From: Pseudomonadota bacterium
GTDB lineage: Bacteria; Desulfobacterota; Desulfobulbia; Desulfobulbales; JAGXFP01
Reading direction: 5' to 3'
Length of the DNA stretch: 64,000 nucleotides
Assembly (NCBI GenBank): GCA_018814305.1
Contig: JAHJAA010000080.1
Span: 1-64,000 of the forward strand
Positions 23,209 through 45,910 of this stretch are shown in pieces. The position numbers and the translations under genes are program-made. The number at the start of each line of letters is the position of its first letter. The stretch's first letter is position 1. The notes below the pieces were generated by a model. The model saw only the letters and a program-made list of their open reading frames with translations, had not been told where the DNA came from and searched no databases.

Positions 23209-23877
23209 ATGGTCATGAAACCTAGAACGGAAAAAATCTTCGCCATCGGCGACATTCACGGATGTCTTGATAAACTTCAGAATCTGCTGGCCCGGTTACC
23301 CTATGACTCAACCTGCGACCGTCTGGTGTTCTTGGGTGATTACATCAATCGTGGGCCTGATACCGCCGGTGTTCTTGATCGGCTGGTGGAACTCAAAAAT
23401 CAAAACCCGAGAGTGGTTGCCCTGATGGGCAACCACGAGTACCTCTTGCTTGAGTACCACCGGACCGGCGATCCGGCCCTGCTCCCCTATCTGCGGAAAA
23501 TGAGCATTGACGCAACCCTCAAAAGCTACGGAATTCACACTGCTTTCAGCTTGCAGTCCCTGAATTTTCTCCCTGAGTCCCACCTGGCCTTTTTGTACAA
23601 CCTGCGACTCTATTGGGAAACGGATGAGTATATCTTCGTTCACGCCGGGATGGAAGCCGATCTGCCCCTGCCCGAGCAGGATGCCACTTCTTTTTGCGAG
23701 GCCAGAGACAGCTTTATCAGCTCGGACCGTGATTTTGGTAAAAAGGTTATTTTCGGTCATACCGAATTTGAAATGCCCTTGGTCACTGCCACCAAAATCG
23801 GAATCGATACCGGCGCCATCCATGGAAATTTCCTTACCGCTGTGGAGCTCCCGGGAAACACCTTTTATCACGCTTAG
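23209..23877 (+). CDS. PPP-family metallophosphoesterase (Ser/Thr phosphatase or Ap4A hydrolase-like)
   Basis: The 222-residue protein has the PPP metal-site motifs in order: GDIHG (17-21), GDYINRGPDT (about 45-54) and GNHEYLL (about 76-82), with FVHAGM and GHTEFE further on. These bind two metals and hydrolyse phosphoesters; the substrate may be a phosphoprotein or a dinucleoside polyphosphate. The ribosome-binding site is weak, and ATG codons at 23209 and 23215 are both possible. The stop TAG falls inside a palindromic repeat. Confidence 0.88.
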   Translation: MVMKPRTEKIFAIGDIHGCLDKLQNLLARLPYDSTCDRLVFLGDYINRGPDTAGVLDRLVELKNQNPRVVALMGNHEYLLLEYHRTGDPALLPYLRKMSIDATLKSYGIHTAFSLQSLNFLPESHLAFLYNLRLYWETDEYIFVHAGMEADLPLPEQDATSFCEARDSFISSDRDFGKKVIFGHTEFEMPLVTATKIGIDTGAIHGNFLTAVELPGNTFYHA

Positions 23878-31915: not shown

Positions 31916-34540
31916 TTAAGATCGTTGAGCTTGATCCTTCGATGTATCCAAATTCAGGCCGGCCAAGATATAATCCCCGGCCATGAAGGCCTGGGCAACC
32001 TTGGAAATCATCTCGTCGGTCCGCATGGCCGCATCCAGTAATCTGGAGAAACCGAGAATCCGCCCCACGACCCGCAACTTTTCTTCCATGATTTCAGAGG
32101 ATCCGCCCTGAATGGAAGCAGTTAACAGATCATCCCGTTGGTCACAGAAAAATCCGGCCTCGCCCAGGATTTCGGCCAGACAGCGTACTCTCCGGTTCCG
32201 TTGTTCTGCTCCGGTGCCACCGCCTTTGAAACGGAACTTGATATAATTGGCTTGGGGATCAATACCACAGATGGCATCAACCATGGTGAAATGGAAGTCC
32301 ATTCGGGCATTGAGGTTGAGGAAATCTCTGGTAACCAGGGCGTAGTTGGGCAGGCCGATTGGTCTGGCCGAGCGATGATCGGTGATAAAACGGGAAACCA
32401 CAGATCCGACCGCAACTCCACCGGCCACCGTCCCCCAGTTGAGGCCTTCAGTTATGATTCCTTCCCAAAGGGCTGTAAAGGGACGGGAGAGCACCCGCTT
32501 TGGTTTTACCCAACGCCCACTTCCCCCCATGATTCCTCCACCCAGATCAATGAGAGAGACGTGGAAGGGGATCTCGCTTTCCAGGTTCAAAATTACCCCG
32601 GAGGCATTTTCCACCGCCTCGTCCCCTGCCTCGAACATGGCCAAGACCGCCTTCTCATGGGCATAGCGGACCAGATCATGGATGGACTGACACTCGGCAA
32701 TGGTGAAGGTGGGACCATATGCATCAGTAAGATTGAGGGGTATCAACCGGTCATAGATTGCGGCAAGGATCGGTTCCGTGGGTCTGGCCTCGTGGTCGTG
32801 CCATTTTTCCTTCCGGGCAAGATGGAGTTGACGATGCCGAACCAGTTCCTCTCCAATGGCAGTATAGACCTCACCACGATCGGTATCGACCAGAATTGCC
32901 TCAACTCCATTCAGGACCTCTGTGGCCCGAACCAGGCCAGTTAACATGGGAATCCCATATTCTCGGGCAACGCAGGAGAGATGATCAGCCGGATTCCCCA
33001 GATCGACCAGCAGGGCCTCAACCTCGCGTAAGGCAGCCACGGCTTCAACCAGACTCTGGTGCATGACCAGAACGTAGGGTGGATCATTCAAGTTTTCCAG
33101 GTCTTCACGGCTCCGCACGATTCGGACCAATCCAACCCCTCGACCGGGTGAAGCGGTGAGTCCATTGGTCAACAATGATATTCGTCCGGGACCTAAATTA
33201 ACCCGGCGGCCGGTATGGGCGGCAATCTTCAAGGGTCTGGCTTGAAGAATAACCACTCTCCCTTCCAGGTCCACCGCCCACTCGATATCCTGGGGACCAC
33301 CCAGGCGGTCTTCCGCCTCACGTCCCAGATGGACCAGTGTCATTATTTCTTCTTCTCGTAACACCGGAGCGTTGGCCGTATTCTGGTCCAAGGTTTCTTC
33401 CTGAACTCCGCCGCCAACCATACTCATCAGTCGACGACTCTTGACCGCCACCCGACTCTCGCCGGGGCCTGATCCATCGCGGGGAGGAAGATAGACATCG
33501 GCAGCTTCACTCCCCCCTACCGCTAATTCACCCAGACCATGCACGGCGCTGATCAACATCCGTCCATCAGTGGAGTAGTTAGGATCAACGGTAAAGAGAA
33601 TCCCGGCTGCCCGGACCTCGACCATCTCCAGGCAGAGGACAGCCAGATCAAACTCGTAGGGCGATAACCCGGCATTTTTGCGATAGGAGATATTGCGAAG
33701 ATTGAAGGCACTTGCAACCACGGTTTTAAAGGCCTCCTCCAACTGGGCCTCCGTGACCACATTCAGCACCGAAACATATTGACCGGCAAAGGAATGGGAG
33801 AGGGTATCCTCGCCAACTGCACTGCTGCGTACGGCCAGGCCACGTCCTGCGGCAAAGAGCGGGGCGGCGGCTTCAGTCAAGGCGTGGGTTAATTCGGTCG
33901 GTAAGGGAGTCGCCATGATCTGCTGTTTCACTGCCTCAACAACCAGCCGATGAGGAAGGCCATCATGGTCCTTTTCCGCCCCATTGAGCTTGGTCACCAG
34001 TCGCAGATAAAGATCCTTTTGTTCAAGGAATAGACGGCAAACTGATACCGGCACAACAAAACCGCTCGGAACCGCAAAAATGGCGTACCGTTGAAGCCGG
34101 GCCAGGTTGGCGGCCTTGCCGCCCACCGCCCTGAGCATGGTCGGGGCAATTTGAGCAAGAGGAAGACAGGCAGGAAGATGTTCATGGGACGGCAAACGAG
34201 CAAACTCGGCTCGGATCTCCCGGGCCAGTCGCTCCTGTCGTCTGGTCAGTCCTTCAGAACGCCCAGAGGTGAGATGTTCCAACTTTTCAACGAGATCGGC
34301 CGTTACCTCAAGGACTTCCTGAAGACCTCCAGCCATGGCCCCGGACCAGAAATTGGAAGAACGGAGGGCAATACCCAGCTCGGTCAACAGTTCCACCGCC
34401 CGATGGTTATCATCCAGCAGGGCGCGAAAGACCTGGTACCTGGCCCTCAGCATGGAAAGTTGTTCAGCTCGCCGTTCATCCTGAAAAAGACGCCAGGTTG
34501 CAAGTGGCTGAGACAGCCATTCATGCCAGGTCCCGAACAT
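31916..34540 (-). CDS. PPDK/PEP-synthase-like phosphotransferase, paralogue 1
   Basis: The 874-residue protein consists of a helical N-terminal domain (30-100), a PPDK/PEP-synthase ATP-grasp domain (about 130-440) with GGKAANLARL (140-149), AVRSSAVGED (236-245), QDIEW (417-421) and LQARP (432-436), and a phosphohistidine domain with His520 in ADHLSCVAREYGIP. Then follows a C-terminal domain (590-860) shared with two neighbours, marked by CQSIHDLVRYAHEKAV and FHFTMVDA...NYIKFRFKGG. The PEP/pyruvate TIM barrel is absent. The layout predicts ATP-driven phosphorylation of the His and transfer to an unknown acceptor. It is the last gene of the unit, 17 bases after paralogue 2; its N-terminal domain is the most divergent of the three. 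Confidence 0.85.
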   Translation of the reverse strand: MFGTWHEWLSQPLATWRLFQDERRAEQLSMLRARYQVFRALLDDNHRAVELLTELGIALRSSNFWSGAMAGGLQEVLEVTADLVEKLEHLTSGRSEGLTRRQERLAREIRAEFARLPSHEHLPACLPLAQIAPTMLRAVGGKAANLARLQRYAIFAVPSGFVVPVSVCRLFLEQKDLYLRLVTKLNGAEKDHDGLPHRLVVEAVKQQIMATPLPTELTHALTEAAAPLFAAGRGLAVRSSAVGEDTLSHSFAGQYVSVLNVVTEAQLEEAFKTVVASAFNLRNISYRKNAGLSPYEFDLAVLCLEMVEVRAAGILFTVDPNYSTDGRMLISAVHGLGELAVGGSEAADVYLPPRDGSGPGESRVAVKSRRLMSMVGGGVQEETLDQNTANAPVLREEEIMTLVHLGREAEDRLGGPQDIEWAVDLEGRVVILQARPLKIAAHTGRRVNLGPGRISLLTNGLTASPGRGVGLVRIVRSREDLENLNDPPYVLVMHQSLVEAVAALREVEALLVDLGNPADHLSCVAREYGIPMLTGLVRATEVLNGVEAILVDTDRGEVYTAIGEELVRHRQLHLARKEKWHDHEARPTEPILAAIYDRLIPLNLTDAYGPTFTIAECQSIHDLVRYAHEKAVLAMFEAGDEAVENASGVILNLESEIPFHVSLIDLGGGIMGGSGRWVKPKRVLSRPFTALWEGIITEGLNWGTVAGGVAVGSVVSRFITDHRSARPIGLPNYALVTRDFLNLNARMDFHFTMVDAICGIDPQANYIKFRFKGGGTGAEQRNRRVRCLAEILGEAGFFCDQRDDLLTASIQGGSSEIMEEKLRVVGRILGFSRLLDAAMRTDEMISKVAQAFMAGDYILAGLNLDTSKDQAQRS

Positions 34541-34557
34541 TAGATCAATCCCATGGC

Positions 34558-37080
34558 TTATGGTTCCTTCCGGATTCGTTCCAGGAAGGTAGTGAAAAAA
34601 CGATCCACCGCTCCGGAGTCGGCCATTTTGACATCCAACTGCCGGGTAAAGGCGATCAACTCGCCCAGGTGGGTCAAAATCGATTCCATATGACTTCGTT
34701 CCAGCATCTTGGCCTTGGCCAGGACCAGGTCACCCTTCCGCTCTACCTTGAAATGTAGTCCGGATAGAATCTGGTCAATCAGCACCGCTCTCCGTTCACG
34801 TTTATCGTTTTCGGCAAAGCCACCGACAAAACGGAAATAGATATAGTTATCATCAGCTTCGTCGGAGAGATAACTGTCAATGATATTGAAATGATATCCC
34901 AATCTCAGGCTGAGATTACAATAATTGTCAGCGATGATGGCCAAATTTTCGCCGGCGTAGTTTGGGGTATGGGTCAGCATGGTCAGGGGACGGCTCAAGC
35001 CGGAGAGAAAATCTTTAACCCCAAATGGCGCCGGTTCTCGATCCCAGGCCTCTTCATTCAAAAGGCCCCGAAGGATCTGGCGGAAAGGTAAACTGGTCAC
35101 CCGATTGACCGTCATCGCCCCGCCCGGGGTTCCGTCCAGACCGCCACCGATATCAATCAGGCGAATTTTCAAAGGGATATTCGCTTCCAGCAGGGGTGCG
35201 CCCTTGGCGCCCACCATCCGGCCGGAGAGATGAAAATCAATGAGTTCGGCCACGGCCCGTTCGTGGGAAAAACGGAGAAAATCGTGGATGGTCTGACAGT
35301 TATCCAGTTTGAAGGAAGGTGAACCGGGGTCAATCAGGTTGAGGGGGGCAATTAAACGGAGGAGACGCCGGAGGATACTGGCTTCAGGTTGTCCTGCCAA
35401 CGGTTCAAAACCGCCGAATTCACACATGTCGGGAGGTAAATCAACCCGACCGGCATAAATCGTGCGTTCTTCAACATCCACCACCACTTCGGTGCCTGGA
35501 GGCAGCAGTCTGGTCGCCTCGCCGGTACCGAATAAAGCCGGAGTCCGGTATTCTCTGGTAATGGTTGCCAGATGACCGGTGGGACTGCCGATATCGGTAA
35601 TGACAGCGGCAGCCCGGCGGACTATTTCGGCCAGACGCGGGTTGGCATAGCGACTCACTGCCACTGCGCCTATTGGAAAACTATCAGCCGGGGTATTCTC
35701 ATCGACGTGGACCACCGGCCCACAGGTCAGACCCAACTGACAGACATGACCTTGACCGGAGAGCAGTACCGGCAGTTGGGAAAGTTCTTCCGCAAGCGCG
35801 GCCGGGGTTTTACACTCACCATAGGTCCGCACATGGAGAGGTCTGGTCTGGAGAATCCAGATTTTTTCCTCGCCATCGATACACCATTCGATATCCTGAG
35901 GCATTTCAAAGCGTTTTTCCAGGAGTAGTCCGTACTCAGCCAGTTTCTTTAAGACCCCCAAACCCACCACCCCGGCACCACGACGTAACCCGTTCTCCCC
36001 TCTGCCACTCGGGATTCCCGTCACTGGAGCGAGATGGCTGGTTACAGGAAAGAAGGGGTGATGACGGCTCAAGCTTAACCGATCTCCGCTCTGTTTGCCG
36101 GAAACCAGTTCTTCCCCACGACCGGCTACAGCCGAGATCACCATGGTTTCCGAACCAGGGGCGATGGGATCGCGGGTATACAGTACCCCGGCTGCCCGGG
36201 CTTCAATCATTGGCTGGACGACCACCGCCATGGGCACTTCTTCGGCAGAACTATCTGGCTCGAGATAGCGAAGAAGACGCTCGGAAAATCGAGAGGCCAT
36301 GACCTTGACTATGGCCGCGGGCACCTCACCTGCCACCACCCCGATAAAGGACTGGAATTGGCCGGCGTAACTTCGTTCACCATCCTCACCAACGCCACTG
36401 CTACGAACCGCAAAAAACTTGGCCCCCCCCGGTTCGGCACAAATCTTTTTCAGCCTTTTATTGATTACTCCCGCCAGATCACCCGGCACTTTTGCCTTCA
36501 TAAAAAGGGCGTTAATCCTGGTGCTTCGCCCAACAGGGTCGGACTCTTTACTGAGGATCTGATCAATCCGGGTGAAGAGATCATTGGTCTCCATGAAATG
36601 ACGATAGCCGGTGGTACTGACCACGAAGCCGACCGGGGCCGGCATTTTAAGGCTATTGACCAGTTCACCCAGATTGGCCCCTTTGCCCCCGGCCAGGTGG
36701 ACCAGATCGCGATGCAGAACCTCCCAGTCCAAAACTAGAAATGGCCCATACGGACCGAGCCCCCCGGCCAGGATGTCTACCAGATGGTCACCGGTGCTGG
36801 TGAAACGATCATAGAGCCTGGCGTAACGATCACCAGACATGGCATTTAAGTGATAGATAACCTGACGCCCTTTTTCAATGATCCCGGTCACCGAGCTTTT
36901 GAGAAAAGACCGGTCATAGATGTATTCACCGCCCAATGCAAACTCCAGATCAGCGACCATCTCTAGGACCTGGTTATTCAAACTGAGGATCCGTCGGAAA
37001 TGGCGGAAGATGGCACTGAAGGTTGCCCCCCCCTCTCCCTCCCGTCCTTGAGGCTGACTGCCGGTGAATATGGAGCTCAT
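34558..37080 (-). CDS. PPDK/PEP-synthase-like phosphotransferase, paralogue 2
   Basis: The 840-residue protein has the same plan: N-terminal helical domain (24-100, LSLNNQVLEMVADLE and YIYDRSF), ATP-grasp domain with GGKGANLGEL (131-140), AVRSSGVGED (224-233), QDIEW (395-399) and LQTRP (410-414), and phosphohistidine motif SPTGHLATITREYRTP with His503. The C-terminal domain starts with CQTIHDFLRFSHERAV and contains GYHFNIIDSY and NYIYFRFVGG. A short insertion near 340-370 (FFPVTSHLAPVTGIPSGR) differs from the others. Its ATG overlaps the stop of the kinase gene by four bases (ATGA), so it is translated with it. Confidence 0.86.
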   Translation of the reverse strand: MSSIFTGSQPQGREGEGGATFSAIFRHFRRILSLNNQVLEMVADLEFALGGEYIYDRSFLKSSVTGIIEKGRQVIYHLNAMSGDRYARLYDRFTSTGDHLVDILAGGLGPYGPFLVLDWEVLHRDLVHLAGGKGANLGELVNSLKMPAPVGFVVSTTGYRHFMETNDLFTRIDQILSKESDPVGRSTRINALFMKAKVPGDLAGVINKRLKKICAEPGGAKFFAVRSSGVGEDGERSYAGQFQSFIGVVAGEVPAAIVKVMASRFSERLLRYLEPDSSAEEVPMAVVVQPMIEARAAGVLYTRDPIAPGSETMVISAVAGRGEELVSGKQSGDRLSLSRHHPFFPVTSHLAPVTGIPSGRGENGLRRGAGVVGLGVLKKLAEYGLLLEKRFEMPQDIEWCIDGEEKIWILQTRPLHVRTYGECKTPAALAEELSQLPVLLSGQGHVCQLGLTCGPVVHVDENTPADSFPIGAVAVSRYANPRLAEIVRRAAAVITDIGSPTGHLATITREYRTPALFGTGEATRLLPPGTEVVVDVEERTIYAGRVDLPPDMCEFGGFEPLAGQPEASILRRLLRLIAPLNLIDPGSPSFKLDNCQTIHDFLRFSHERAVAELIDFHLSGRMVGAKGAPLLEANIPLKIRLIDIGGGLDGTPGGAMTVNRVTSLPFRQILRGLLNEEAWDREPAPFGVKDFLSGLSRPLTMLTHTPNYAGENLAIIADNYCNLSLRLGYHFNIIDSYLSDEADDNYIYFRFVGGFAENDKRERRAVLIDQILSGLHFKVERKGDLVLAKAKMLERSHMESILTHLGELIAFTRQLDVKMADSGAVDRFFTTFLERIRKEP

Positions 37081-38582
37081 GGTTTCGTCACATCGTTAGC
37101 GTTTTCGTCAAGGAGCGGCAAGGTAATTCGAAAGGTGGTCCCCTCTCCCTGGACACTTTCCAGGGTAATCGAACCATCATGCTTTTCGATGATGGAATAA
37201 CTCACCGAAAGCCCCAGGCCGGTACCGTCATTCTTGGTGGTGAAAAAAGGATCGAAAATCCGTTTCTTATCTTCAAGGCTGATGCCTGGCCCGTTGTCGC
37301 TGATTTCCACAAGACCCACGCCTTCCTCGGGTCGGGCCAGGACTCGAACGGTCAGGCGACCACCGGGTGGCATGGCCTGAATCCCATTGAGCATGATATT
37401 GATCAACACCTGCTCAATCTGGCTTGGGAAGCCAAGGGAGAAAACCGGGGTTAAGGAAAAATCTGATTCCACCAGAATCTGGCTCAGACGAATCTGATTT
37501 TTCAGAAGGCCGATGGAATCCTCGGAGATCTGGACCAGATCAAGCCGGACCGGTTCCGTGGTCTTGGCCATTCGGATAAAGACCAGGAGATTTTGCACAA
37601 CCTCCCTGGCCCGTTCGGTCTGGGCCAGGATCTCGGATACCATCTCGCGGGTGGAGTCTTCACCTTCCTCGGGTAAATCCTCAAGGAGCACTTCTGCGGT
37701 CAACGAAATATTATTTAAAGGGTTATTGACCTCATGGGCCAAACCGGCGGTTACCTGGCCGATGGTAGCCAGCTTGGCTGACTGGATCAGGGCCTCTTGT
37801 TTTTCAACCAGGCTCCGCAGCATCATATTCAAGGAATTGACCAACTCAACTCCTTCCAGTGAACCACGAACTGCAGGGGCCATGGGAATGGCGCTCAACT
37901 CACCATTCATGATTCTGGTTGCGGCCCGACGTAAATAATCCAACGGCTGCGTCACCCAGCGGACCAGCAGAGTGGCAAAGATTGCCCCCATTACAAAGGT
38001 TATTCCCATGGCAATCAAGGAGAAGCGGCGGAAACGCCGACTATCCTCCTCGGCCTCAAGCCGGGCCTCCGCATCCCGATCCAGAACGTATTCGGTAAAG
38101 GATTGCCCCTCTTCCCGAACTTTGGTCATGAGCTTTCTGGGCGGCGGCATTTTCGTCAAGCTCTTGATTTGCAACAGGACATCAGCGTATTTTTCAAGTC
38201 TGGTTCGATATTCGGTTATCTCTTCATTTGACAAAACATCGGTATCTTTCAACTGGCTGACCTGAGCCCGGACCTGATCGATATAGTCTAAGGCACTGAT
38301 CAGATCGGTCTGGTTATGATAGAGCAGGAAGTTCTTCTCGTAGCGCCGGGTCTCCAGCACCTTCTGGTTCAACTCATAGGAGAGTTCGATGAGCTTAAGC
38401 TTATCGGCAATCCGGGACAGGGAATAAAGGGCATTCACCGTGGCGAAACACCCCAGGCCAAAAATAATGGCCAGGCTGATCACCATTTTTCGCCGCAGGG
38501 AACGGGCCTTGCGCCGGACCGGACGATGCAACTCACAGGACGGGCCGGTCGGATTGGAGCTATTGTTTGCGGCTTGAACCAT
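37077..38582 (-). CDS. Membrane sensor histidine kinase of the PPDK-like cluster
   Basis: The 501-residue protein has two membrane helices (about 31-53 and 189-211) enclosing a helical periplasmic sensor of about 135 residues, then a HAMP linker, HisKA with acceptor His in LAHEVNNPLNNISLT, and an ATPase domain ending in DGTGLGLSVSYSI. The ATG at 38582 overlaps the receiver gene's stop (TGATG); a TTG one codon earlier is ignored. The overlap arrangement, receiver then kinase then paralogue 2, makes a functional link among them very likely. The signal is unknown. Confidence 0.9.
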   Translation of the reverse strand: MVQAANNSSNPTGPSCELHRPVRRKARSLRRKMVISLAIIFGLGCFATVNALYSLSRIADKLKLIELSYELNQKVLETRRYEKNFLLYHNQTDLISALDYIDQVRAQVSQLKDTDVLSNEEITEYRTRLEKYADVLLQIKSLTKMPPPRKLMTKVREEGQSFTEYVLDRDAEARLEAEEDSRRFRRFSLIAMGITFVMGAIFATLLVRWVTQPLDYLRRAATRIMNGELSAIPMAPAVRGSLEGVELVNSLNMMLRSLVEKQEALIQSAKLATIGQVTAGLAHEVNNPLNNISLTAEVLLEDLPEEGEDSTREMVSEILAQTERAREVVQNLLVFIRMAKTTEPVRLDLVQISEDSIGLLKNQIRLSQILVESDFSLTPVFSLGFPSQIEQVLINIMLNGIQAMPPGGRLTVRVLARPEEGVGLVEISDNGPGISLEDKKRIFDPFFTTKNDGTGLGLSVSYSIIEKHDGSITLESVQGEGTTFRITLPLLDENANDVTKP

Positions 38583-38980
38583 CAACCATCTCCAGCCATA
38601 TCGCTCACTGCCCTAAGAATGGCATCCTTGATCTCATCCAACCGGAATGGTTTGGGAATAAAGTCAAAGACCCCCCCGCTGAAGGCGGCATCGGCCGTAT
38701 CCATCTCGGCATATCCGGTGATAATGATCACCCTGGTTCGAGGATTGATTTTCTTGACCCTTCTCAGTACCTCCAAACCATCCATCCCCTGCATCTTGAG
38801 GTCGGTGACCACGATATCAAAGGGGTGCTGTTCTGCTGCGGCCACGGCCTGAACAGGATCGATGTGGGCTTCAACCACATATCCCATCTTGGTGAAAATC
38901 TGGTTCAGCCGTTTGCCGACAATTGCTTCGTCATCGATGATCAGCAACCTGCGGGGTTCGCTGTTTGATCCAACAACCAT
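38582..38980 (-). CDS. Single-domain response regulator
   Basis: The 132-residue protein is a bare receiver: acidic pair in IIDDEAIV (19-20 region), acceptor Asp in VVTDLKMQGMDGLEVL, Thr in IITGYAEM and Lys in PKPFRLDEI. It has no output domain, so it must act by protein contact, perhaps on the PPDK-like enzymes or in a phosphorelay. AAGGAGGAG precedes the ATG, the best ribosome-binding site of the cluster. It starts a block of overlapping genes. Confidence 0.92.
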   Translation of the reverse strand: MVVGSNSEPRRLLIIDDEAIVGKRLNQIFTKMGYVVEAHIDPVQAVAAAEQHPFDIVVTDLKMQGMDGLEVLRRVKKINPRTRVIIITGYAEMDTADAAFSGGVFDFIPKPFRLDEIKDAILRAVSDMAGDG

Positions 38981-39241: not shown

Positions 39242-41815
39242 TCATTCGTCCGAGACCACGCTGTAATTACCCATGAGAAATGCCTCCACATAGTAATCAA
39301 CTGCCGCCTCACTGTCCAGACGGACATCAAGTTGCCGGGTATAACCGACCAGTCGACCGAGAATATCCAGCACCCGTTCCATTTCACTCTGGAGCATATT
39401 GCTGGCTCGGGCGATCACCAGGTCGCCTCGGGTCCGGACGTTGAAGTCAAAAGCGGTCAGGATTTCGGCAATCATCCGGGCCCGCCGACTGCGCTTAGTC
39501 AGGTCGGTGGCCCCGCCGAGAAAACGAAAATAAATATGATTGTCGCGTTCACGTTCATCGCAATGGGCATCGATGATATTAAAATGATACCCGAAACGGA
39601 AACAGAGATTGACATAATTCCGACTGACCACCGCGATGTTATGACCGGTATATTGGCCTTCCAGGGCATCGGTCGGCACCGAAAGCATGCTGCTCATCAG
39701 GTCGTGAAAGCCCACCGGCATGGTGGCTCGATGCCAGACTTCGGGATAGAGCATGCCCCGGAGAATGGCCCGGAAAGGGATGGAGGTAAGGGCAGAAAAA
39801 GGCACCTGGCTGGTCGGGGCCTCGGGGGCCAAACCACCGCCGATATCGATGATCATGATCCCTGCCGGAATGGGAAGTTCCAGACTGCGGGCCAGGTTAT
39901 GGCGCAACAGGCTGCGTTCATCCTTACCCATGTTGACCAGGGTAATTACTGCGGTTTCATGGATGTAGCGCAAAAGGTCGTGGTAGGTCAGGCAGTTTTC
40001 CGGGGTGAACTGATCCATCAACGGATCAACCAGGTGTAAACGGGCCACAGAGTTTAACAACCTTCGCAATAGACGAAACTCCCAGGTGGCGCCAAGATTG
40101 ATGCTGGTGGAGAGTTGATAGGCCAGCAATTCCTTGACCCTTCCCCGAAATATTCGCCGGTCTTCGGTATCGACGGTAATTTCCTGGCCATTTTTAACCA
40201 GGGAGAGGATGTCGTGGACATTGACCAGACAGGGCACCTGCATTTCCCTGCAGAGGGTGGCCATGTGACTGACCGGGGTTCCGATTTCCGTGACAATGGC
40301 GGCGGCACGGTGCATGACCCGAACAAAATGGGAAGAATCGCGACGCCCGACCAGGATAGCACCATCAGGGAAATCTTCCAGATCGGTATCCTGGCGGACC
40401 ACATGCACTTTCCCTGCCCCAATCCCCTGCTGGGCGACCTGCCCCCGATCCACCACCAGAAGCTCATAATGTTTGAGGGCTTCGATCAGATCCCGCCGGA
40501 GATCACGGGTTACTGGAACCAGCAGTGGCCTGGACTGAAGGATAAAGAGACGCCCTTGTTGATCAAAGGTCCATTCGATATCCTGGGGTCGTTTGAAATA
40601 ATTTTCCAGTTGGATGACCCGATGACCGAGTTCAAGCAATTGGGCCTCGTCAAGGCACGCCTCGTCCTGGAGTTCAGCAGGCAGCGGCTTTTCAATTAAT
40701 CCTCCTTCGACAGCCAGATAGAGTCCGCTTGCCTTACGGGAAAGGTTTCTTTCTCGAATGGTGGCTGGATCACCCTTGTGAAGTAAGAAGGTATCCCCAG
40801 GGAATTCACCTTCGGCGATGCCGGCTCCCTGCCCCCAAGTCCCGACCACAATCATGGTTTCTCCCCCGGGATTCCCCGGATCGGTGGAATAGGCAACGCC
40901 GCTGACCAGAGAATCCACCATGATCTGGATCCCCGCCCCGATGGACATCTTGCCGTCTTCGGGGAAGAGCCAATGACGATAGTCCACGGCCTTGCGACTA
41001 AAGAGACTGGCCGCCACCCTTCGATAGGCGGCAAAGACCGCCCGGGGCGTGGGTGCAACATTTAAGACCGAGAGAAACTGTCCGGCAAACGAGAAATCGA
41101 GGTCCTCCTCTTGGGCGCTGCTCCGGACCGCAAGGGTAAAAGGGGAAGGAGTCTTAGCGGTCATGGCCGCCAACTGTTGATTAATTTCTTCTAAAAAATC
41201 GGACGGTGGCTTGGCGATTTCCAAGGCTGCCTCCAGCCTTAAACGAACCTCTTCCAGTTCATCCGGGCGGTCTCCGAGAATCCACAGGGACTCGAATTGA
41301 TCCACCAGGGAACGTAATCCATTGTATTCAATCAATTCATGGTAGGTCCGGGTGGTGATGGCGAAACCAGGGGGAATATCGATCTTGAGGTGATGAATCA
41401 GTTCGGCGAGATGGGCATTCTTTCCTCCGACAATGCTCCACTGGAGAGGATCAACCTCCTCCAGAGAGACCAGCCTGGGACCCTGGCGGTCATCTTCACG
41501 CAACATGATGGCTCGCAGATGTTCGGTAAGTCGGGTGTGAACTGCAAAGAGTTCCTGGTGATGGGGGTCGAGATGATTGAGAGCGACCACCGAGTCATGA
41601 AGGGTAGTGATCAACTCCTCAACGCTCTCTCCAATATATTGTCGATCAAAGATATAGTTGCCGCTGAGTTTTTCACCCAGGTCGGCTATTATTTCAAGGG
41701 CTCGATTGTTGCTGCGGAGAACAGTACGAAAACGTTCAAAGACCTGGCGGGGATCCAGATTGTGGTGGTCAGTCCTGCCAAAGAACCGGGCTATTATCTG
41801 CCAAAAAGAATGCAC
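39242..41815 (-). CDS. PPDK/PEP-synthase-like phosphotransferase, paralogue 3
   Basis: The 857-residue protein shares all domains: N-terminal helical region (25-105, LRSNNRALEIIADLGEKLSG and YIFDRQY), ATP-grasp with GGKNAHLAEL (130-139), AVRSSAQEED (229-238), QDIEW (411-415) and LQSRP (426-430), phosphohistidine motif TPVSHMATLCREMQVP with His517, and C-terminal domain with CLTYHDLLRYIHETAV, GYHFNIIDAH and NHIYFRFLGG. The start is GTG with GAGG 12 bases upstream; no ATG is suitable. It follows the TIGR02186 gene by 77 bases and is separated from the kinase block by a repeat. Confidence 0.86.
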   Translation of the reverse strand: MHSFWQIIARFFGRTDHHNLDPRQVFERFRTVLRSNNRALEIIADLGEKLSGNYIFDRQYIGESVEELITTLHDSVVALNHLDPHHQELFAVHTRLTEHLRAIMLREDDRQGPRLVSLEEVDPLQWSIVGGKNAHLAELIHHLKIDIPPGFAITTRTYHELIEYNGLRSLVDQFESLWILGDRPDELEEVRLRLEAALEIAKPPSDFLEEINQQLAAMTAKTPSPFTLAVRSSAQEEDLDFSFAGQFLSVLNVAPTPRAVFAAYRRVAASLFSRKAVDYRHWLFPEDGKMSIGAGIQIMVDSLVSGVAYSTDPGNPGGETMIVVGTWGQGAGIAEGEFPGDTFLLHKGDPATIRERNLSRKASGLYLAVEGGLIEKPLPAELQDEACLDEAQLLELGHRVIQLENYFKRPQDIEWTFDQQGRLFILQSRPLLVPVTRDLRRDLIEALKHYELLVVDRGQVAQQGIGAGKVHVVRQDTDLEDFPDGAILVGRRDSSHFVRVMHRAAAIVTEIGTPVSHMATLCREMQVPCLVNVHDILSLVKNGQEITVDTEDRRIFRGRVKELLAYQLSTSINLGATWEFRLLRRLLNSVARLHLVDPLMDQFTPENCLTYHDLLRYIHETAVITLVNMGKDERSLLRHNLARSLELPIPAGIMIIDIGGGLAPEAPTSQVPFSALTSIPFRAILRGMLYPEVWHRATMPVGFHDLMSSMLSVPTDALEGQYTGHNIAVVSRNYVNLCFRFGYHFNIIDAHCDERERDNHIYFRFLGGATDLTKRSRRARMIAEILTAFDFNVRTRGDLVIARASNMLQSEMERVLDILGRLVGYTRQLDVRLDSEAAVDYYVEAFLMGNYSVVSDE

Positions 41816-41892: not shown

Positions 41893-42678
41893 TTAATGGG
41901 CGCCGCCCCCTTTCTTGAAGATCATTCCTACGGCGAATCCGGCAATGATCGCGATGATTACGGCCATCATACCATAGAGGGCTGCATTGTTGAAAGCCAA
42001 GTCGGAGAGTTTGGCAACAACGCCGGACCGTTCAACGGTGAACTGAGCACGTGAACGCTCTACCACTTGGCCGTTACGAACTGCCATGGCCTCCACGGTA
42101 TATTCACCGGGAGGGGCCTGAAAGGGCCAGGCCACTTCCACCTGATAGGTGTCGTTGGTCTGCCCGTGCTGTCGGGTCACGGTGCCGGTATGGATAGCGT
42201 AGAGATTCTGCTTCTCTTTAAAGCGAATAAACTCATTTTTCCAACGGGCCTCATCGCCCTTCAGTTCGGCGCTGGGGGTTTCCATTTCGGCAACCTCGGT
42301 CAGGGCCTTATACCCAATCAGGTTGGCCGTCTGGGCTGCATCATCCAGCAGATTTTCCAATTCTCGAGAACTATAGAGCAGGTAGACACCGGGAACATTT
42401 TTAAAGGAGACATCACCTTTTTTCATCCAGAACAGGCCACCGGCTTTACCCATATATTTGTAATGGGCGTCATCCGCTTCGTTGCCGATGCGGATGATCA
42501 GATCATCACCGGCAACGTTCTCACCGGTTACCGACAAGGTGGCGCCGTGATAGGTGAGGTTGATTTTAATATTATCAGGACTCACCTTGCTGGTCACGGC
42601 ATGGGCCGGAGCAGGAGTAAAAGTCAGACCAATGAGCACGAGAAGAACAGCGAACCGGGAGATCAATGTAGTATTCAT
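41893..42678 (-). CDS. TIGR02186 family membrane-anchored periplasmic protein
   Basis: The 261-residue protein has a signal peptide (cleavage after HAVTS or AHA, about residue 27), a strand-rich periplasmic domain with VSPDNIKINLTYHGATLSV at its start, and one C-terminal helix (about 232-254, MMAVIIAIIAGFAVGMIF) before KKGGGAH. This matches the TIGR02186 family, whose genes usually neighbour a TauE/SafE exporter, as here (3 bases apart). It may form a periplasmic partner of the exporter; the substrate is not known. Confidence 0.82.
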   Translation of the reverse strand: MNTTLISRFAVLLVLIGLTFTPAPAHAVTSKVSPDNIKINLTYHGATLSVTGENVAGDDLIIRIGNEADDAHYKYMGKAGGLFWMKKGDVSFKNVPGVYLLYSSRELENLLDDAAQTANLIGYKALTEVAEMETPSAELKGDEARWKNEFIRFKEKQNLYAIHTGTVTRQHGQTNDTYQVEVAWPFQAPPGEYTVEAMAVRNGQVVERSRAQFTVERSGVVAKLSDLAFNNAALYGMMAVIIAIIAGFAVGMIFKKGGGAH

Positions 42679-42681
42679 GGA

Positions 42682-43614
42682 TTAATGTCCTCCCTTCATG
42701 GCCAACATCATGGAAGGTTCCAACACCAGTTCCAGAACTATTTTGGCAGTCACGGCAAGAACGATAATGGCCAGCAGGATCTTCAATTGATCACCATGCA
42801 GCTTTTTACCGAGAATGGTACCAACCTGGGCACCGAAAACCGAACCAACCAGCAACAGAAGAGCCAACAGGAAGTCAACCGTGTGGTTGGAATAGGCCTG
42901 GAGAAAGGTGACCTCAATACAGGTGAACATGATCTGGAAAAGGCTGGTGCCGACCACCACATGCATGGGCATCCGCAACATGTAGATCATTACCGGCACC
43001 ATCAGGAAACCGCCACCGACGCCCATAATGGCCGCCAGGATTCCGACAAAGGCACCTAAAACAACCGGGACCAGAGCTGAATGGGTTACCCCTGATTTAT
43101 CAAAATAGGTCTGCAGGGGCAGAGAGCCGAAAAACCCTTTTTTCTTCTCAACCGGAGCAGATGACTTGGTCTCCTCGACGGTTGCGGCATTCTTATTCTT
43201 GCGGAGGGCGTTTAAACTTTCGAAGAACATAAAGGTGCCGACCACACCGAGCATAACCACATAGGTCATCTTGATCAAAAAGTCGGCGCCGCCGGTGGCC
43301 CGTAACACTTTAATGATCTGAACACCAAAAGCCCCGCCGACAAAACCGCCGATCAGCAGGTAGATGCCCATCTTATAGTCAACATTGCCCAAACGCCAAT
43401 GGGCGTAGGTCCCTGAGGCTGAGGCCGCAACAATCTGGTTGGCATCAGTGGCAGCGGCAATGGTCGGCGGGATACCGATCATCATCAAGAGCGGCGTCAT
43501 CAAAAAACCGCCCCCAACCCCGAAGAGGCCCGACAGCAGGCCGACTCCAAGTCCCAAACCCACGACCAGCAGCCAGTTGACGCTGGTCAGGGCGATTGGC
43601 AAGTACATGTACAT
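42682..43614 (-). CDS. TauE/SafE (TSUP) family anion exporter
   Basis: The 310-residue inner-membrane protein has about eight helices in two repeats, each opening with the glycine-rich motif: GLLSGLFGVGGGFLMTPLL (24-42) and GILAAIMGVGGGFLMVPVM (about 190-208). This is typical of TSUP transporters for sulfite, sulfonates or other sulfur anions. A charged cytoplasmic loop lies between the halves (KNKNAATVEETKSSAPVEKK). AAGGAG lies 7 bases before the ATG. It heads a probable unit with TIGR02186 and paralogue 3. Confidence 0.92.
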   Translation of the reverse strand: MYMYLPIALTSVNWLLVVGLGLGVGLLSGLFGVGGGFLMTPLLMMIGIPPTIAAATDANQIVAASASGTYAHWRLGNVDYKMGIYLLIGGFVGGAFGVQIIKVLRATGGADFLIKMTYVVMLGVVGTFMFFESLNALRKNKNAATVEETKSSAPVEKKKGFFGSLPLQTYFDKSGVTHSALVPVVLGAFVGILAAIMGVGGGFLMVPVMIYMLRMPMHVVVGTSLFQIMFTCIEVTFLQAYSNHTVDFLLALLLLVGSVFGAQVGTILGKKLHGDQLKILLAIIVLAVTAKIVLELVLEPSMMLAMKGGH

Positions 43615-43740: not shown

Positions 43741-44250
43741 TCATTTTTTTTGGGTGGAAATCTTTTTTAAAAGTCGAGACTGACTCATAACCCTATTTAC
43801 ATCTTTGTCTTGAAGGGTAGGCGCCTTGATAATCTGCAGATCTTTTTGAAAGCGATTGGGGGCTGCCTGTAACTTCTTCTGCAGTTCACCAAGCAATTCA
43901 TTCTGTTTTGCCCTTTGTTTGTCGGGCCAGGTTCCAATTACCAGCCAGGTGATGGAATTGGAAATAATGAAATCCGCAAGTTGCTCTATTGAATCTTCAT
44001 CTACAAGATGGCAACTGGCTTGAACACCTTCAAGTTCGGCAAATTCAGCAACAAAAACAAAGTCATTTAGGGATTCATCCTTCGGCGACTTGTCATCCGC
44101 TGTCCTCTCTGCTGATCTCCAACCTCCAACAAATTGGGTCCGAATCACATACAGCCGGCCTTCTGCTCTTCCAGCCAATTGCACCGCACTGATGCTGGCA
44201 GAAAGATCAGAATGGAAACCATTCAAGATTAAAACAATATTTGGTCCCAA
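43741..44250 (-). CDS. Small UspA-like protein (weak match)
   Basis: The 169-residue cytoplasmic protein alternates strands and helices like a universal-stress fold: NIVLILNGFHSDLSASISAV at the start, LADFIISNSITWLVIGTW near 95-112, and a basic C-terminal tail ending in KKISTQKK. The ATP-binding GxxG motif of UspA is missing. The frame starts with TTG, preceded by AGGTG; the next internal ATG is near the end. It precedes the TSUP gene by 126 bases. Confidence 0.6.
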   Translation of the reverse strand: MGPNIVLILNGFHSDLSASISAVQLAGRAEGRLYVIRTQFVGGWRSAERTADDKSPKDESLNDFVFVAEFAELEGVQASCHLVDEDSIEQLADFIISNSITWLVIGTWPDKQRAKQNELLGELQKKLQAAPNRFQKDLQIIKAPTLQDKDVNRVMSQSRLLKKISTQKK

Positions 44251-44521: not shown

Positions 44522-45910
44522 TCAGGGTTGATTGGGGGAGATATTACGAAGACGTCGCCAGAGAGTGGTTCGTGATATGCCCAAGCGACGGGCCGTTTCG
44601 GTCTGATTGTAACCGGTTTCACGGTAGACTTTGGAAATATGGCTCATTTCCAAATCTTTGATTTCAACGGAGTCGGGAGCAGTTTGAGGTTGCTCAACGA
44701 TCCCGGTCTGATAAAGCATATCAGGAGGAAGATTTGCCAGTTTCAAAGTGTTTCCCTGGCATAGGGCCACGGCCCGTTCCATGATATTTTCCAACTCCCG
44801 AACGTTTCCGGGAAAACTGTAGCGGGCCAGTTCACTGAGTACATCCTTGCTCAGGATCGGGACTTTCTTGCTGAACCTGGCCGCCGCCTTCCGCACAAAA
44901 TGTCCGGCTAACAGTGGAATATCTTCGATCCGTTGGCGGAGCGTAGGAAGTTCGATCATCACCACCTTGAGACGGTAGTAAAGATCCTGACGAAATTCCT
45001 TGGCCACCACCATTTTTTCCAGATTCCGGTTGGTGGCGGCAATAAAACGGACATCAATGGCGACCGATGCGGTCCCACCAACCCGCATATAATTCCGCTC
45101 CTGAATAACCCTCAGCAGTTTCACCTGCAGGGCAAGGGGCATTTCGCCAATCTCATCCAGGAAAACGGTCCCCCCCTCGGCAGTTTCAAGAAGTCCGAGT
45201 TTGGTACTGACCGCTCCGGTGAAGGCACCTTTTTCATGGCCAAAGAGTTCGTTGGCAATTAATTCATCGGTAAAAGCGCCGCAATTAAAAGAAACAAATG
45301 GTTTATCACGGCGAGGACTGTTGCCGTGCAGAGCCCGGGCAATCAATTCCTTGCCGGTCCCGGACTCTCCCTGCAGCAGGACACTACAATCCAGAGGTGC
45401 CACCTGAGTAATTGTCTTAAAAATGGATTTCATGGCAGGAGAAGCGCCGATGATCTCACCGAATTGCTCGGTGCCACGGATTTCCTGATAGATTCGATTT
45501 TTTTGCCGCTTTTGCCGAACCATGACCAGGGCCTCGTTGATGGCATCCCTGACGGTTTGGAGTTTGATCGGCTTTTCCAGGTAATTGAAGGCGCCTTTCT
45601 TGGTAGCTTCAACTGCTTGGTCGATGGCGGCGTAACCGGTCATCAGGATCACTTCCATATCCGGGGCGGCAGCCCGCATCCGCTGCATGAGATCAATACC
45701 GTCGGCATCCTGCAACCGGATATCCATCAGAATCAGATCCGGGGGGGCGCTCAAAACCTTATTCAAGGCCTCCTTGCCCGAGATAAAACCCTCCACCTCG
45801 TAGTCTCCTTTACCTAATGCCTTGACCAGACGTTGGACGGTAATCACCTCGTCATCCAGAATATAGATCTTGGGGACGGGTGGAATTTTATGTTTGGAAA
45901 CAGGGCTCAT
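44522..45910 (-). CDS. NtrC-family sigma-54-dependent response regulator
   Basis: The 462-residue protein has a receiver with acceptor Asp63 (LILMDIRLQDADG), an AAA+ domain with Walker A GESGTGKE (181-188), the sigma-54 contact loop GAFTGA (228-233) and NPRNLEKM-type downstream parts, and a Fis-type helix-turn-helix, NQTETARRLGISRTTLWRRL, at the end. It activates sigma-54 promoters when phosphorylated. The nearest orphan kinase is the one at 37077-38582, but that has its own receiver. No clear -24/-12 site was found nearby. Confidence 0.93.
   Translation of the reverse strand: MSPVSKHKIPPVPKIYILDDEVITVQRLVKALGKGDYEVEGFISGKEALNKVLSAPPDLILMDIRLQDADGIDLMQRMRAAAPDMEVILMTGYAAIDQAVEATKKGAFNYLEKPIKLQTVRDAINEALVMVRQKRQKNRIYQEIRGTEQFGEIIGASPAMKSIFKTITQVAPLDCSVLLQGESGTGKELIARALHGNSPRRDKPFVSFNCGAFTDELIANELFGHEKGAFTGAVSTKLGLLETAEGGTVFLDEIGEMPLALQVKLLRVIQERNYMRVGGTASVAIDVRFIAATNRNLEKMVVAKEFRQDLYYRLKVVMIELPTLRQRIEDIPLLAGHFVRKAAARFSKKVPILSKDVLSELARYSFPGNVRELENIMERAVALCQGNTLKLANLPPDMLYQTGIVEQPQTAPDSVEIKDLEMSHISKVYRETGYNQTETARRLGISRTTLWRRLRNISPNQP

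Follow-up and report, generated by a model that had tools for sequence, protein, structure and literature searches.

The three dikinase paralogues encoded in the window (the whole stretch of 64,000 nucleotides that was analysed) end in a common domain, here called the CTD, which on balance we take to be the second active site, the putative phosphoryl acceptor, of a new dikinase subfamily. Since no relative of known chemistry could be detected for the CTD, the case for catalysis is made from residue types and conservation. Dikinases combine one ATP/phosphohistidine engine with exchangeable acceptor domains, and the CTD adds to them an acceptor-position domain of unrecognised fold.

Three dikinase paralogues and their common C-terminal domain

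The paralogues (P1, P2 and P3) all lie on the minus strand:

31916..34540 (-): paralogue 1 (P1, P0001), 874 aa; helical N-terminal region 1-120, PPDK_N 138-440, PEP-utilizers 487-556 with H520, then the CTD
31919..32785 (-): CTD of P1, residues 586-874
34558..37080 (-): paralogue 2 (P2, P0002), 840 aa; PPDK_N 128-419, PEP-utilizers 471-537, CTD 563-840 (34561-35394)
39242..41815 (-): paralogue 3 (P3, P0003), 857 aa; PPDK_N 128-431, PEP-utilizers 482-551 with H517, CTD 574-857 (39245-40096)

Positions 31961-32773 of the window, read on the minus strand, are exactly residues 590-860 of the 874-aa ORF at 31916-34540 (-). Pfam placed PPDK_N (ATP-grasp) above the gathering score in all three paralogues (224, 196 and 220 bits vs 27), and PF00391 (PEP-utilizers, the swivel domain) was above its cut-off in each. 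All three window copies have the ATP-site residues K132, R231, E414, Q427 and R429 and the swivel H517 (P3 numbering). By both domains, P1, P2 and P3 are members of the PPDK/PEP-synthase dikinase superfamily, predicted to convert ATP to AMP via a phosphohistidine. Pfam found nothing in any of them past about residue 556, and the C-terminal PEP-utilizing (barrel) domain had no Pfam match in the paralogues. A full-length model of P1 (pLDDT 88.4, pTM 0.69) matched structures of rifampin phosphotransferase (RPH), PEP synthase, HpeI and PPDK with its front part. The helical N-terminal region before the ATP-grasp domain (P1 residues 1-120, 34181-34540 (-)) is likewise without a Pfam match; it is also found in P2 and P3, and its F38, N45 and L59 (P1 numbering) are kept across the family.

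An earlier note had claimed that a C-terminal domain of about 270 residues with a set of landmark motifs is common to the three PPDK-like proteins, and the translations bear this out. The motifs are CQSIHDLVRYAHEKAV, IDLGGG, NLNARMDFHFTMVD, NYIKFRFKGG and RNRR in P1; CQTIHDFLRFSHERAV, IDIGGG, NLSLRLGYHFNIID, NYIYFRFVGG and RERR in P2; and CLTYHDLLRYIHETAV, IDIGGG, NLCFRFGYHFNIID, NHIYFRFLGG and RSRR in P3. All the landmarks thus occur in all three proteins, except that the NYI of the note is NHI in P3. The CTDs of P2 and P3 are both 30-31% identical to that of P1. The shared pattern is not due to chance: searching with a three-row profile recovered the domain from 127 stretches of genome_contigs and from 44 of 58 related genomes, often in several copies.

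Positions invariant or nearly so in the CTD of P1 are C617, H621, D622, H628, E629, D665, P687, H750, D755, N765, R770, R784, D804, R833 and D836. In an alignment of 152 full-length sequences, columns conserved to at least 97% numbered 25 of 262 in the CTD, 7 of 306 in the ATP-grasp domain and 8 of 107 in the His (swivel) domain. H612, H619, H744, R778, D798 and D830 (P3 numbering) were invariant across the 151-152 aligned sequences, and the swivel H517 was kept in 151 of 152. The CTD therefore has the densest invariant His, Asp and Arg columns, which supports the earlier suggestion that its conservation marks functional residues. A distant family member, L045:6228-8810, has Tyr in place of the swivel His and Lys in place of a following Arg, and with these replacements it may be inactive as a phosphocarrier.

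Comparison with known folds and dikinases

The statement that the CTD belongs to no named family held across Pfam, NCBIfam, PHROGs, PADLOC, PDB sequences, PDB folds and viral folds; a confident match to a described domain was looked for by profile and by fold (Foldseek), and none was found. Pfam gave no meaningful match to the CTD in any of 91 members, and neither the single sequence nor a 91-row profile had a PDB sequence relative of note. PHROGs had no match for the CTD, and PADLOC had none for the whole proteins. A CTD model (AlphaFold2, 91-row alignment; mean pLDDT 87.2, pTM 0.80) runs from N-terminal helices through strands and helices to a four-strand run (153-193), a helix, two strands and further helices. 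When this model was compared with the PDB by Foldseek, the best E was 0.05 and no listed match exceeded a query-normalised TM of 0.24. T4 MotA C-terminal domain, the C-Ala domain of alanyl-tRNA synthetase and arginine kinase, at E of about 0.05 or worse and within the same TM bound, were dismissed as noise. Viral structure models offered nothing convincing for the CTD, and the modelled fold is apparently an unrecognised one.

With no fold relative of known catalytic function, the CTD could also be a regulatory or assembly domain, concerned with ligand sensing or oligomerisation, that receives no phosphate, the acceptor binding elsewhere or on a separate subunit; the occurrence of the paralogues in trios, which suggests a multi-subunit assembly, is in keeping with this. 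We regard it as quite improbable, however, given that charged and His residues are conserved in the CTD above the level of the ATP-grasp domain and that the CTD occupies the position of the acceptor barrel in PEP synthase and PPDK.

That position after the swivel domain raises another alternative, in which the paralogues would be ordinary PEP synthases and the CTD their PEP/pyruvate TIM barrel in a highly diverged form. The best partial NCBIfam matches are indeed to PEP synthase, but at 230-274 bits they are far below the cut-off of 598 (NF005057) and end at about residue 572. A profile comparison (hhalign) of the CTD with the barrel of the canonical PEP synthase encoded separately in the same genome (locus L004) gave a probability of 0.1%, and the CTD model contains antiparallel hairpins and lacks (beta-alpha)8 order. 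With these results, and with a canonical PEP synthase already in the genome, a diverged barrel is effectively excluded. Automatic annotation will nevertheless tend to label CTD dikinases as PEP synthase.

PEP synthase itself (pyruvate, water dikinase; NF005057/TIGR01418; PDB 2ols, 8a8e, 9dae) has the ATP-grasp domain followed by the swivel His, in the same order as here, and a sequence profile compared with its structures covers positions of about 103-572 and ends there. Where PEP synthase has its C-terminal PEP/pyruvate barrel, the paralogues have the unrelated CTD, and they add the unannotated helical N-terminal region of about 120 aa. The family also differs from PEP synthase in that several copies per genome are common and in its linkage to TauE, PF09608 and two-component genes. 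PPDK (PDB 1kbl, 1dik) has the ATP-grasp and phosphoryl-carrier domains, arranged in the same order, and the swivel mechanism in common with the paralogues, but profile similarity stops at the carrier domain and the C-terminal barrel of PPDK is unmatched.

RPH (NF041857, PDB 5hv1, 5fbs) is a small-molecule dikinase of three domains, one of them an acceptor domain of its own (PMC4844700). It resembles the paralogues in its ATP-grasp domain (5hv6, TMt 0.85-0.88) and swivel His, whereas its order is ATP, rifampin domain, His and theirs is ATP, His, CTD. An assignment of P1 as RPH was rejected: P1 scored 203 bits against a cut-off of 999 for NF041857, and its His domain is central with the CTD after it. 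RPH was also absent from the best fold matches of the CTD alone. Lys22, Arg117 and the swivel His matter in RPH (PMC4844700), and judging by order and spacing, we infer that the first two correspond to K132 and R231 (P3 numbering).

Some dikinases are split and act as two proteins, as HpeHI and PpsAB do (PMC12167813). In HpeHI, CreHI and the phenylphosphate synthase PpsAB, the ATP-grasp part and the swivel/acceptor parts are on two cooperating proteins (PMC12167813), a division that parallels the ATP-dead middle paralogues described below. The substrates of these three systems are aromatic, and the architecture of HpeH is that of the swivel and rifampin-binding parts of RPH; no relative of the CTD was found.

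ATP-dead paralogues and the predicted acceptor site

Six ATP-site residues were checked (K132, R231, D238, E414, Q427 and R429, P3 numbering; a gap was not counted as a loss), and in nine middle (P2-type) copies between three and six of them are gone. All nine retain the swivel H517 and the CTD set, with rare changes in the latter (D613E in one copy, N759D in two, R827K in one), and in 9 of 9 loci the ATP site is intact in the other two copies of the same operon. The tree, which included seven of the nine, groups these seven in a single clade (SH-aLRT 94). Identity in the ATP-grasp domain is 34% among ATP-dead copies vs 49% in intact orthologues, whereas in the CTD it is 55% vs 57%. Because the CTD and the swivel His are both preserved in copies with a decayed ATP-grasp site, they appear to be the selected core of the protein, and because one paralogue can lose its ATP site, the three probably act together. 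In the ATP-dead copies, the swivel His and CTD probably still work, being charged in trans by a neighbour. The retention of the CTD and swivel His despite this decay, together with the dense invariant His, Asp and Arg residues, indirectly strengthens the acceptor-site reading.

In the mechanism that we propose, the ATP-grasp domain would phosphorylate the swivel His (H520 in P1) with release of AMP, and the swivel domain would then turn to the CTD, which would take the phosphoryl group or, in the reverse direction, give it back. The CTD would bind the acceptor through its invariant His, Asp and Arg set, residues that would fit an acceptor that is probably anionic and perhaps bound to a metal. 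The three paralogues would probably cooperate, in trans, and control of the system probably lies with the adjacent pair of receiver and histidine kinase.

Gene cluster, distribution and link to sulfur metabolism

The paralogues belong to a conserved cluster with the order TauE, PF09608, dikinase, receiver, His kinase, dikinase, dikinase. Its further members in the window are:

37077..38585 (-): HAMP sensor histidine kinase, between P2 and P3
38582..38980 (-): single-domain response regulator RR132, with conserved D60, T88 and K110
41893..42678 (-): PF09608/TIGR02186-type membrane protein, upstream partner in 34 of 36 loci
42682..43614 (-): TauE/SafE family exporter, upstream partner in 33 of 36 loci
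43741..44250 (-): 169-aa protein with no convincing Pfam match, kept upstream of TauE in 12 loci
44522..45910 (-): NtrC-type sigma-54 response regulator of the cluster

The denominators for PF09608 and TauE are the 36 loci with room upstream. The searches made of the literature found none on this dikinase gene cluster. The order P3, RR132, His kinase, P2, P1 is conserved across loci, and at least three dikinase copies lie on one strand in 27 of 80 loci. In a tree of 102 CTDs, P1, P2 and P3 fall into three separate clades with matching neighbours, so the triplication is old and the three are orthologous groups.

In 60 of 78 loci the gene immediately downstream of a dikinase encodes an RR132 orthologue, with the phosphorylation residues retained. 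This leads to the alternative that the acceptor is a protein: the CTD would dock a partner, likeliest RR132, to which the swivel phosphohistidine gives phosphate or from which it removes it, making the dikinase an energy-state input to signalling. Transfer from phosphohistidine to aspartate is ordinary phosphorelay chemistry, and a histidine kinase and a sigma-54 regulator occur in the same clusters. But the CTD invariants are His, Asp and Arg of active-site type and are spread over the whole domain, and RR132 adjoins P3- or P2-type genes, whereas P1-type genes are usually without a receiver yet have the same CTD set. We therefore consider a receiver acceptor unlikely, and we favour an acceptor site within the CTD itself.

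The CTD occurred in 107 of 297 sampled genomes of the host phylum. No free-standing or otherwise fused CTD was found among the strongest matches listed in this sample, and nearly all listed frames were of dikinase length, the few short ones being mostly near contig ends. The frames of 982-1714 aa that suggested fusions seem to owe their length to running stop to stop upstream of the gene and not to an added domain, and an in-frame TAG in four genomes of one genus proved to be the ordinary terminal stop. Plasmid-borne copies were searched for and none was found.

In the same phylum sample, DsrA (TIGR02064) was above cut-off in 143 of 297 genomes, and it was present in 102 of the 107 CTD carriers; the five carriers without it are incomplete genomes (62-80% complete). 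PF09608 was found in 51 genomes, 50 of which carry the CTD. The Fisher values (3e-38 and 2e-25; the DsrA set behind them contained one genome slightly below the cut-off) take no account of shared ancestry and are not independent evidence, and the association with DsrA owes part of its strength to common ancestry within one phylum. It is also one-way, as about 42 genomes with DsrA have no CTD. DsrA was also present in ten of eleven further carriers, the exception being an Abyssobacteria MAG (L013); most of the eleven bear the labels of other phyla (Acidobacteriota, Nitrospirae, Gemmatimonadetes, Deferribacteres, Actinomycetes and others). CTD dikinases are thus spread, often in multiple copies, through bacteria with dissimilatory sulfite reductase.

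This near restriction to DsrA carriers, together with the TauE neighbour, ties the dikinase system to dissimilatory sulfur metabolism, and from these associations the CTD is probably the hallmark of a new kinase, in sulfur-breathing microbes, for a small molecule that may be a sulfur compound. Sulfate activation leaves AMP and pyrophosphate, which a dikinase working in reverse could use. We put forward, tentatively and as a possibility well short of even, a guild-specific sulfur dikinase system: the CTD would be a new fold serving as phosphoryl acceptor or, in reverse, donor for a sulfur compound or high-energy intermediate, the reverse reaction might regenerate ATP from the AMP and PPi/Pi that sulfate activation leaves, the ATP-dead paralogue would be served in trans, and the dedicated receiver would act as a switch. 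Should the DsrA association prove functional, these microbes would have a phosphotransfer step, related to energy or to sulfur, that has so far been overlooked.

Several other genes recur around the dikinases. A calcineurin-like metallophosphoesterase (PF00149) lies at 23209-23877 (+) of the window, 8 kb away from the dikinases, and its relatives are directly beside the P1-type gene in many other loci (a cluster of 18 loci). In one group (L058, L059, L062, L068, L072, L075 and L084), a repeated-DUF202 protein adjoins the P1-type gene downstream, that of L075 having an additional weak MshEN match. In some other clusters, a Usp protein takes the place of the 169-aa protein upstream of TauE, and in L024, L026 and L029 a transporter-like gene, a double Usp protein and an FGE-sulfatase-type protein recur upstream of the TauE cluster.
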